Below are positions 37,493 to 40,202 of a stretch of 64,000 nt of DNA, in pieces (the first letter of the stretch is position 1; every line of letters starts with the position of its first letter). A program made the translations under genes and the position numbers. The DNA comes from Sulfitobacter litoralis (GTDB taxonomy: Bacteria; Pseudomonadota; Alphaproteobacteria; Rhodobacterales; Rhodobacteraceae). The DNA is taken from the NCBI RefSeq assembly GCF_900103185.1, contig NZ_FNJD01000004.1, positions 124,001 to 188,000 of the forward strand, written 5' to 3'. The notes under the pieces were generated by a model. It made no database searches. It was not told where the DNA came from and saw only the letters and a program-made list of their open reading frames with translations.

Positions 37493-39043
37493 TCAGCGCC
37501 CTTTGAACAACCCGCCCAGAATACCACGCACAATGCGGCGGCCGGTTGTGCCCTTAAGCTCTTTGATCACCACGCTCGCGATGGCACCGCCGAAGCTGTC
37601 ATCGCTTTTGGTCGTGCGTTTCGCCGTGGATCGTGTCACCCGTTTGCCAGCATAACGCCGCGCTGCGTTGAATTCACGCAGGGCTGGCGATGTGTCTTCG
37701 GCTTCCGCTTGCTCTTCGGCCTGTGCCGCTTCTTTCGCGGCATCCTCTGCCCGTTTGGCCAACATTTCGAAAGCCGAGGCGCGGTCGAGGCGGGTGTCGT
37801 ATTTCCCAGCCATCGGGCTTTGCGCCATCAGGGCAGCGCGGGTGGCAGGATCAAGGGGGCCTAGCTGCGAGGACGGCGGACGGATCAAGGTCCGCTCGAC
37901 CACACCGGGTATCCCCTTTTTCTGCAGCATCGACGTGACGGCTTCGCCCACGCCGACCTCGCGGATCGCTTCTTCGGTCTCGAAACGCGGATTGTCGCGG
38001 TAGGTTTGGGCGGCGAGACGCAGGTCTTTGCGGTCTCGGGCGGTAAAGGCGCGCAGGGCATGCTGGATACGGTTGCCCAACTGGCCAAGGATATCTTCGG
38101 GTACATCGGCGGGGTTTTGCGTGATGAAATACACCCCCACCCCTTTGGAGCGGATCAGACGCGCCACCTGTTCCACCTTATCTACCAGCGCTTTGGGGGC
38201 GTCATCAAACAGCAAATGTGCTTCGTCAAAAAAGAAAACAAGTTTGGGTTTCTCCGGATCGCCGACCTCGGGCAGTTCCTCGAAAAGTTCGGACAGCAGC
38301 CACAGCAGAAAGGTCGCATAAAGTTTTGGGGCTTGCATCAGCTTGTCAGCGGCGAGGATGTTGATAAAGCCGCGCCCGTCCGTGTCGGTCCGCATCAGAT
38401 CGCTTAGCGCTAGCGCAGGTTCACCAAAAAGGTCAGCCGCCCCTTGGTTTTCAAGGACCAGGAGCCGCCGCTGGATCGCGCCCACGGACGCCGCAGACAC
38501 ATTGCCATAGCGCAGAGCCAGCGTAGACGCGTTCTTGCCGATCCAGACTAGCAGGGATTGCAAATCTTTCAGGTCCAGAAGCGGCAATCCGTCTTCGTCG
38601 GCGACACGAAAGGCGATGTTCAAAATGCCCTCTTGCGCCTCGGTCAGGTCCAACAGCTGCGCCAGCAGCAACGGGCCCATCTCCGAAATCGTCGTCCGGA
38701 CGGGATGGCCCTGTTTGCCGTACATATCCCAGAAGGTCACAGGGAAAGCGCTGTAGTCGAAATCGTCAAAGCCGATGGTTTGCGCGCGCTCGGTAAAGGG
38801 GGTGTGCAACTTATGGCTGGCGGATCCGGCCTGCGCGAGGCCAGATAGATCGCCCTTTACGTCAGACAAGAAGACCGGCACCCCAGCCGCAGAGAAGCCT
38901 TCGGCCAGAATTTGCAACGTGACCGTTTTGCCCGTGCCCGTCGCCCCCGCGATCAGACCGTGACGGTTGGCATAGCCGATGTTGAGAAATTGTTTGGTCG
39001 CGTAGGCTTCGCCACCCCCGCCGATGAAAATATCATTTGTCAC
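37493..39043 (-). CDS. HerA-like/YjgR ATPase (DUF853)
   Basis: A 516-residue P-loop ATPase of the HerA-FtsK superfamily, YjgR branch. Walker [11 protein letters not shown] is at residues 31-40, [19 protein letters not shown] follows, [17 protein letters not shown] is Walker B, and [30 protein letters not shown] contains the sensor and Arg finger region. The C-terminal 100 residues are Ala/Glu/Arg rich and low complexity. The physiological role of YjgR proteins is not known. It stands alone, with candidate small RNAs upstream. Confidence 0.9.
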
Positions 39044-39120
39044 GTATTTAAGTCCTTTTAGGCCAATAGCCTTCAGTCAAAGTGCAGGGTGAGCATACAA
39101 ACTTAACCTTTTCACACCAT

Positions 39121-39213
39121 AGTGATTTTGTCGCCGATCGTGATGTCCTTTTCGTATCGGCGACACTTCCTCCCTGTCAGACTTGGCCGTGCCTTCGGGT
39201 ACGGCCCTTTTTT
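39121..39213 (+). ncRNA. Candidate small RNA 1 with anti-SD stretch
   Basis: A perfect 10-bp hairpin (TGTCGCCGAT at 39129-39138 with ATCGGCGACA at 39156-39165) is followed by single-stranded CTTCCTCCCTGT at 39166-39177, then by an intrinsic terminator: GGCCGTGCC, TTCG loop, GGTACGGCC and a T6 run. The layout hairpin / C-U-rich seed / terminator is that of trans-acting small RNAs, and CUUCCUCCC could pair with Shine-Dalgarno sequences. The 5' end is uncertain; I saw no clear promoter. Confidence 0.55.
39185..39213 (+). terminator. Terminator of candidate small RNA 1
   Basis: Nine-base-pair stem (39185-39193 with 39198-39206, one G-T) capped by a TTCG tetraloop, followed by CTTTTTT. No protein-coding gene on this strand precedes it for over 1.5 kb. 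Confidence 0.85.
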
Positions 39214-39291
39214 CATTGTGGCCAAGTTTACCGGTCTGAAACGATTGTGAAATTTTATGTTGACGGTTCATCAATGCTTTCGTAACCTGCC

Positions 39292-39360
39292 CTTAATAGG
39301 TCGGCCAAGTCCGACGGGGAGAACGAAGAACAGGGAAAGGGGCGCTTTGCGCCCTTTTTT
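39292..39360 (+). ncRNA. Candidate small RNA 2, complementary to small RNA 1
   Basis: TTGACG (39260-39265) and TAACCT (39283-39288), 17 bases apart, could start a transcript near 39294. It would contain a small hairpin TCGG-CCAAGT-CCGA (39301-39314), a purine-rich single strand, and a terminator with GGGCGC/GCGCCC stem and T6. CGGCCAAGTC (39302-39311) and ACAGGGA (39330-39336) are perfectly complementary, in the right antiparallel order, to 39180-39189 and 39171-39177 of candidate small RNA 1. Confidence 0.45.
39339..39360 (+). terminator. Terminator of candidate small RNA 2
   Basis: GGGCGC (39340-39345), TTT loop, GCGCCC (39349-39354), then six T. The AAAG before the stem can pair with the T-run. 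Confidence 0.85.
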
Positions 39361-39512
39361 CTATTGCGCCCCCCAATGGGCCGCCTGCCGCCTTAACCCC
39401 CGATGAAATAGGCGAAATTTTGCCTTAAATCACGATCGTTTCACCGCTATCATCCTGACATTAGCGTTGGCGCATGGTAGATGGCGTCGAATTTAACTGA
39501 TTTGGAACGAGC

Positions 39513-40202
39513 ATGAAAAAGTATATCACACTTCTCCCTCTTTGCGCGGCGATGGCTCTGACTATGCCCGTTTCCGGTTACGCACAAACTGCAGCCACGG
39601 AAACACCCGCAGCAACAGACGCCCCGGAAACAACGGCACCGACTGCTGAAGCGGCCCCTGCGACCGAAGAGAACACCACTACCGGCAGCAGCACGGATGT
39701 GCAATCGCAGCTCAGCCTTGGTGAAGACTCTGACGGTGAGCCGACCCTTGGAAAGCCCTACACCAAAGAAGTGATCGGTGCGTGGGAAATGCGCTGCATC
39801 AAGACCGAAGAAGAGATCGACCCCTGCCAGATGTACCAGCTGATGGATGATGGCCAGGGCGCACCTGTTGCCGAATTCTCGCTGTTCCGTCTGCCAAGCG
39901 GCGGCAAGGCAACGGCAGGTGCAACGGTTGTTGTACCGTTGGAAACGGCCCTGCCCTCGCAAATGACACTGACCGTCGATGGGGGCAAAGCCCGCCGTTA
40001 TCCTTTCGCGTTCTGTAACCCCGTTGGCTGCTATGTGCGCATGGGGCTGACCGATGCCGACGTTGCTGCATTCAAGCGCGGCAAGGAAGCGGTGATCACG
40101 ATTGTGCCCGCGCTGGCCCCCGACCAGAAGGTTGAACTGGCATTGTCGCTTGACGGGTTCACAGCCAGCTTCGACAAATCCTCGATTGTTGAAAACAAGT
40201 AA
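39513..40202 (+). CDS. Invasion-associated locus B (IalB) family protein
   Basis: A 229-residue secreted protein. A signal peptide (to about residue 25, GYAQT) is followed by a 45-residue Thr/Ala/Pro/Glu-rich linker and the IalB domain: GAWEMRCIKTEEEIDPCQMYQLM, VVVPLETALPSQMTLTVDGGKARRYPFAFCNPVGCYVRMGLT, with the paired cysteines of the family. IalB was named in Bartonella, but homologues are widespread in free-living Rhodobacterales, in which the role is unknown. A terminator follows the stop. Confidence 0.9.
   Translation: MKKYITLLPLCAAMALTMPVSGYAQTAATETPAATDAPETTAPTAEAAPATEENTTTGSSTDVQSQLSLGEDSDGEPTLGKPYTKEVIGAWEMRCIKTEEEIDPCQMYQLMDDGQGAPVAEFSLFRLPSGGKATAGATVVVPLETALPSQMTLTVDGGKARRYPFAFCNPVGCYVRMGLTDADVAAFKRGKEAVITIVPALAPDQKVELALSLDGFTASFDKSSIVENK

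Follow-up and report, generated by a model that had tools for sequence, protein, structure and literature searches.

Does a small RNA gene of Sulfitobacter litoralis encode an antagonist of the regulatory RNA next to it, and is that neighbour its only target? The question is raised by two short RNA genes, here called RNA1 and RNA2, which lie on the plus strand between a HerA-like ATPase gene (37493–39043, minus strand, HerA_C protein), divergent from the pair, and ialB (39513–40202, plus strand, IalB protein), on its 3' side. All coordinates refer to the window, the whole stretch of 64,000 nt that was analysed, and the ends of both RNAs are predictions. Our main reading, to which we give a probability of roughly 0.7, is that RNA2 would be an independently transcribed sponge: it would mask the anti-Shine-Dalgarno (anti-SD) core of RNA1 and of its siblings SorX and SorY, and would thereby relieve their targets.

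We will start with RNA1 (39130–39213, plus strand), which appears to be an anti-SD small RNA (sRNA) similar to αR8, SorX and SorY, as judged from sub-threshold Rfam matches and from its fold. It has a predicted 5' hairpin (39130–39164), a single-stranded region (39166–39184) formed by the anti-SD core CTTCCTCCCTGT (39166–39177) plus CAGACTT, and an intrinsic terminator with a TTCG loop (39185–39213), which is found both by folding and by a terminator scan. The fold has z = -7.1 against 200 shuffles; it leaves the stretch CUUCCUCCCUGUCAGACUU unpaired between a stable 5' hairpin and the UUCG-capped terminator, which is the structure that had been proposed from the letters. Conservation is concentrated in a few segments: all 29 aligned sequences have TCCTCCCTGT unchanged, and TCCTCCCT followed by G or A is present in 208 of 218 homologous pairs. 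The sequence of the 5' hairpin drifts among relatives, and the hairpin is absent from the consensus fold of 29 sequences. When the loci are folded singly, 98 of 99 loci taken one per genus form a hairpin at the 5' end of RNA1 with an energy of at most -8 kcal/mol; 368 of 495 shuffles do the same, so that the excess is modest. In the terminator, one of the nine pairs predicted by the consensus fold has double-sided changes.

A conserved box precedes RNA1 on the plus strand (39094–39123), with CATAC, TTAACC (39103–39108) and CATAGT (39118–39123). It was aligned across the Sulfitobacter loci, one of which (L010) ends before the box. TTAA is found in 97 of the 99 one-per-genus loci and the full TTAACC in 66 of them. 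The box is a probable promoter or regulator site which does not resemble sigma-70 promoters, and it may bind a regulator common to RNA1 and the divergent HerA-like gene. Its letters can be read as ATAC...TTAACC...CCA, with equivalent sites in relatives.

The class of RNA1 can be approached through its Rfam scores, which are 36.4 bits for SorY (RF02651, cut-off 111), 35.2 for suhB/mmgR (RF00519, cut-off 41) and 32.4 for SorX (RF02784, cut-off 46.6), all below the gathering cut-offs. Among the RNA1 loci of 20 relatives the SorX score rises up to 46.1 bits. No other place in the S. litoralis genome matches suhB as well as RNA1, but a suhB search at E 0.1 also matches 8 of 14 control genomes, one of them above the cut-off. 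We call RNA1 only αR8-like because its suhB score is below the cut-off. In RNA1 the stretch CUUCCUCCCU agrees with the αR8 10-mer UUUCCUCCCU in 9 of 10 letters and is predicted to be single-stranded, and a Rho-independent terminator stands right behind the core as the class requires. The hairpin before the core is strong, whereas the definition of αR8 has a weak one. MmgR/αR8 RNAs also share with RNA1 the order of 5' hairpin, UUCCUCCCU core and terminator; in most species they adjoin the FGase gene, a linkage which is absent at RNA1, where the neighbours are the HerA_C and IalB proteins. With SorX and SorY of Rhodobacter sphaeroides RNA1 has in common CUCCCUGU, GACU...GGCC, a terminator and the size. 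It differs by CAGACU in place of UGGACU and by its location between two protein genes, unlike SorX, which is described as processed from an mRNA 3'UTR (PMC6238624). We take RNA1 as the closest relative in this genome of the αR8/MmgR–SorX–SorY class.

RNA2, the sponge candidate (about 39296–39362, plus strand, about 67 nt, aligned over 30 loci), has a different organization. It contains a 5' hairpin GUCGG-CCAAGU-CCGAC (39300–39315), seen in the fold and in the alignment, whose loop includes part of the target-complementary site; GGGGAG follows, and then an intrinsic terminator (39335–39362). The fold has z about -3. Double-sided changes are found in 8 of the 17 predicted pairs, all eight within the terminator. 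Promoter-like boxes TTGACG-N17-TAACCT span 39260–39288: the -35 box (39260–39265) reads TTGA followed by C or T in 98 of the 99 one-per-genus loci, and the -10 box TAACCT (39283–39288) has TAGCGT as family consensus in such loci. These boxes match the consensus at 8 of 12 positions. The promoter and terminator of RNA2 had been recognized in the original prediction; simple consensus scans of 39040–39520 miss both, as they give no promoter and call only the terminator of RNA1. It is on conservation that we consider them probable. In the 30 loci 18 of the first 26 positions of RNA2 are invariant and the remainder drifts, so that the sRNA-complementary 5' module is its most constrained part. A tandem duplication of this module is found in one genome (L239 in G369, minus strand, near position 700). 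No Rfam family matches RNA2 at the gathering score, either in the window or in the RNA2 loci of seven relatives.

How widespread is RNA2? With a model built from 30 Sulfitobacter loci, used at E 0.01, we find RNA2 in 342 of the 394 genomes sampled from the family, which correspond to 341 of 393 genera. A motif scan of named genomes gives at least 120 stretches; 77 of the 80 titles among the matches listed belong to groups which we take to be Rhodobacteraceae, Rhodobacterales or Paracoccaceae, the exceptions being L075, L104 and L117. Outside the family the model matches 43 of 337 class-wide genomes weakly, with 31.4 bits and below, and the hairpin module is missing in the top five of these loci, which were inspected. 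The neighbourhood is also conserved: among the matches listed, 108 of 120 named loci have the HerA-like gene upstream and divergent, and 111 of 120 have ialB downstream.

For the study of pairs we fetched 280 RNA2 loci, one of which lacks the RNA2 motif as a regular expression. An RNA1 motif is found upstream of RNA2 in 234 of the other 279 loci; the 45 loci without it were left out and 16 duplicate pairs were merged, which gives 218 unique pairs with a median spacing of 133 nt. From the 342 family genomes which have RNA2, the 130 best-scoring places were fetched, so that the pair counts lean toward better-scoring RNA2.

The two RNAs are complementary. RNAduplex pairs 39170–39178 with 39313–39321 and 39180–39189 with 39302–39311, that is 19 bp around a single A·C mismatch, with an energy of -38.9 kcal/mol. 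On the RNA1 side (39170–39189, plus strand) the duplex contains CTCCCTGTC, the mismatched A and GACTTGGCCG; on the RNA2 side (39302–39321, plus strand) it has CGGCCAAGTC, the mismatched C and GACGGGGAG. The first block, CGGCCAAGTC (39302–39311) with GACTTGGCCG (39180–39189), is the one originally described. A second collinear block does exist, but its RNA2 part is the adjacent GACGGGGAG (39313–39321), which pairs with CTCCCTGTC (39170–39178). We have rejected the partner formerly proposed, ACAGGGA (39330–39336): only 8 of the 218 homologous pairs have it downstream, whereas 213 of them keep GGGAG directly behind the hairpin. The extra GGCCAAGT at 39220–39227, which had been noticed as a repeat of the motif, is real in its letters; it looks like chance, since only 4 of 218 pairs have such a motif between the RNAs.

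Within the window the pairing is better than expected by chance. When 12,794 segments of 30 nt from both strands are compared, the best partner of RNA2, its own antisense aside, is the RNA1 site (-40.5 kcal/mol); the next unrelated segment reaches -36.2 kcal/mol. The 26-nt RNA1 site gives -38.9 kcal/mol with RNA2, and the best of 2000 mononucleotide shuffles gives -33.8 kcal/mol. Of the 218 homologous pairs, 196 have a net hybrid energy below -10 kcal/mol. The duplex is predicted to cover most of the anti-SD core of RNA1, and all five bases of CTCCC are paired to RNA2 in 201 of 218 predictions, in agreement with the earlier suggestion that pairing hides the anti-SD stretch. The RNA2 site is predicted to lie over the mRNA-binding core of its target, as is expected of a sponge. 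Both sites hardly change among relatives, in contrast to the rest of the RNAs, which drifts.

Because the pairing sites are so invariant, few positions of the duplex can co-vary; their invariance could also reflect other partners. Covariation is present in the RNA2 terminator and at one position of the duplex; the RNA1 5' hairpin has no consensus support. The duplex position is an extra T in RNA1 (GACTTG in place of GACTG), which is associated with an A in RNA2 (AAGTC). Among the 218 pairs, 12 have both, 6 only the T, 10 only the A and 190 neither, an imperfect association in which 16 of 28 cases are one-sided. With one locus per genus the counts are 6, 3, 7 and 83 (Fisher p = 1e-4). When a tree of 202 loci is calculated with FastTree from HerA peptides (16 of the 218 pairs lack a usable one and were left out), with the root fixed to neither state, dependent evolution of the two positions is better than independent evolution (LR 27.6, 4 df, p = 1.5e-5). 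An earlier simulation on the tree was compatible with chance (612 of 2000); its null fitted badly, as it produced 76 A-states on average vs 20 observed. None of 5000 permutations reaches the strength of the cognate duplexes, whose advantage is only about 0.3 kcal/mol. The T/A co-variation and the cognate advantage give moderate support for pairing.

RNA2 also occurs where RNA1 is undetected. A covariance model finds RNA1 in 85 of 100 family loci; in the other 15 RNA2 is present with no RNA1 match at E 0.001, and RNA1 is undetected in some genera. We searched for SorX in 16 genomes: 14 of those 15 (G242, with locus L201, was left out) together with G232 and G162, whose loci (L044 and L305) likewise have no RNA1 match upstream of RNA2. 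All 16 genomes match at E 0.01, 13 of them above the Rfam cut-off. These 13 are the ones that count, since 4 of 14 control genomes match at E 0.01 and none above the cut-off. The SorY model also gives a match in 110 of 120 family genomes. We fetched 30 sibling loci, 27 with a readable core and 3 without. The exact sequence CCTCCCTGTTGGACT is found in 23 of the 27 cores, and it fits AGTCCGAC(A/G)GGGAG of RNA2 with no mismatch if G-U is counted as a pair. The duplexes of RNA2 with these 27 siblings have energies from -30.1 to -43.2 kcal/mol; in 26 of them the energy is reached by none of 500 shuffles, and in the remaining one (L338) by a single shuffle. S. litoralis itself carries, at other places in its genome, two SorX loci which exceed the Rfam cut-off, L063 (G000:C28:48858–48947) and L064 (G000:C37:40390–40438). 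Each of them is predicted to give -36.0 kcal/mol with RNA2, vs -38.9 for RNA1.

Since RNA2 is kept where RNA1 is undetected and is about equally complementary to SorX and SorY, we consider it a candidate sponge for the group of anti-SD sRNAs. The best reading of these sequences is that RNA2 would be more than a private antagonist of RNA1, which would be its neighbouring target. The idea of a regulator with an adjacent antagonist is in this way supported by comparison, but its scope has to be widened to include the siblings.

The same pair can be followed in R. sphaeroides. One genome (G110) has the only SorY match above the cut-off among 120 genomes, at C4:1632645. This position agrees with the published transcription start of SorY at 1,632,642 (PMC6238624), so that the genome is very likely that of strain 2.4.1. 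Its tandem RNA pair lies between a catalase gene and ialB. Its RNA1 scores 29.1 bits with the RNA1 model (E 2.7e-6) and matches no Rfam family at E 0.1; for its RNA2 the predicted duplex has -36.0 kcal/mol with RNA1 and -38.6 kcal/mol with SorY. An sRNA called UdsE (formerly RSs2778) has been described in this species: its 5' end coincides with a transcription start, it is detected by northern blots, RNase E and PNPase are involved, and it is reported as derived from a 5'UTR and co-transcribed with mRNA (PMC8625941). The accessible part of that paper assigns it no function, as a sponge or otherwise. As katE is RSP_2779 and a catalase gene stands before the two RNAs in G110, the gene numbers indicate that UdsE is probably the RNA2 of R. 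sphaeroides; it could be RNA1 instead.

How would such a sponge work? The single-stranded CUUCCUCCCUGU of RNA1 would cover the ribosome-binding sites of mRNAs, as its class suggests. The 5' hairpin of RNA2 with GGGGAG behind it would mimic a target which contains a Shine-Dalgarno sequence, and would form 19 bp with RNA1 and a duplex of almost the same length with the SorX/SorY siblings elsewhere in the genome. Pairing may begin at the RNA2 loop (CCAAGU with ACUUGG) and then zip through GGGAG; the anti-SD core of RNA1 and its siblings would be masked, and the presumed effect on their targets is relief. We infer that the pair is expressed in S. litoralis. As the RNA2 promoter is sigma-70-like, a steady supply and a thresholding role are suggested. 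Hfq is probably involved, and the paired RNAs probably decay, as with CrfA in Caulobacter.

CrfA is the closest analogue. It is a proven sponge of the αR8 sRNAs SisA-D in Caulobacter crescentus, induced by carbon starvation (PMC12559287). Judged by its published description, it resembles RNA2 as a short RNA whose G/A-rich element can pair with the conserved anti-SD core that several αR8 siblings share, with the same predicted outcome. Unlike CrfA as it is described there, RNA2 adjoins one of its targets (234 of 279 loci) and has its site in a 5' hairpin GTCGG-loop-CCGAC plus GGGGAG, with pairing past the 10-mer into GACTTGGCC. In R. sphaeroides, which belongs to the same bacterial family as the host of RNA2, StsR is another sRNA which acts on an sRNA, UpsM. 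The available description (PMC8307010) sets it apart, as StsR is controlled by RpoHI/RpoHII and UpsM comes from the dcw 5'UTR, whereas the promoter of RNA2 is sigma-70-like. We found no sponge of SorX or SorY in the open-access literature searched; a search with RNA2-like letter strings gave, among the matches listed, only sibling-like strings in unrelated papers.

Other explanations have to be weighed against a sponge. The position of ialB behind RNA2 in most named loci invites the view that RNA2 is the 5' leader of this gene, attenuated or processed, and that the match lets RNA1 and its siblings control ialB in cis. The report on UdsE, which is probably the R. sphaeroides copy, is in line with it: the RNA is called 5'UTR-derived and there is RT-PCR evidence of co-transcripts with mRNA (PMC8625941). 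However the 3' end of RNA2 is a terminator whose pairs show compensatory changes, some 150 nt upstream of the start of ialB; behind it, 29 of 30 Sulfitobacter segments have a putative promoter element, CTGACA (L024 ends before). Furthermore the 5' module is the most constrained part of RNA2 and has been duplicated on its own in L239, and we find this explanation unlikely. Slightly less probable still is a conventional sRNA which acts on mRNAs and is itself regulated by RNA1 and its siblings. It would fit the retention of RNA2 where RNA1 is undetected and the observation, reported for Caulobacter, that over-expressed SisA also lowered full-length CrfA (PMC12559287). But the conserved module has the form that a decoy needs, as it mimics a Shine-Dalgarno sequence and can pair with the anti-SD siblings, and according to the same paper CrfA was mistaken at first for an mRNA regulator.

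The complementarity might finally be a by-product, if what RNA2 conserves is simply a purine stretch resembling an SD sequence, to which any anti-SD sRNA would be complementary with no function involved. GGGGAG is indeed SD-like, and the near invariance of the interaction sites limits what co-variation can say. This explanation is the least credible of all: the pairing runs well past the SD part into AGTC-C-GAC and GGCC, no conserved start codon is seen behind the SD-like stretch in the 30-locus alignment, and the extra T and A are associated between the two RNAs.

The independently transcribed sponge remains our preferred reading. A stronger version of it, which we put forward tentatively and hold at somewhat less than even odds, would make RNA2 a master antagonist throughout the Rhodobacteraceae, steadily made from a sigma-70 promoter, which buffers every αR8/SorX/SorY anti-SD sRNA and sets a threshold for the stress-induced siblings. 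It would have arisen independently of CrfA, and we postulate in that case that an αR8-type sponge has been acquired at least twice.

The principle of a sponge for αR8 sRNAs has already been published for Caulobacter (PMC12559287). What is new, within the literature searched, is that a different lineage has a separate RNA, which is linked to one of its targets, is found family-wide and fits SorX and SorY. Both of these are stress sRNAs that have been studied in R. sphaeroides, and no antagonist of them is described in that literature. If our reading is true, RNA2, with its presence in most of the sampled genera, would be a missing layer of control over the core shared by SorX and SorY; together with CrfA it would suggest that αR8-type sponges are recurrent in Alphaproteobacteria, in this case with genetic linkage to one target.

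Some minor features were also observed. A target search with ACAGGGAGGA gave three sites in the genome, one of which is the antisense of RNA1 itself, so that we claim no mRNA targets. The site in contig C26 was set aside: it is a CcsR1-like hairpin with CCTCCTCCCTGTG (L069, G000:C26:2100–2193), which scores 28.9 bits vs a cut-off of 65.3. In two genomes SorX-like RNAs form neighbouring doublets, in G240:C35:29511–29788 (L337 and L343) and in G268:C3:381885–382107 (L336 and L344).
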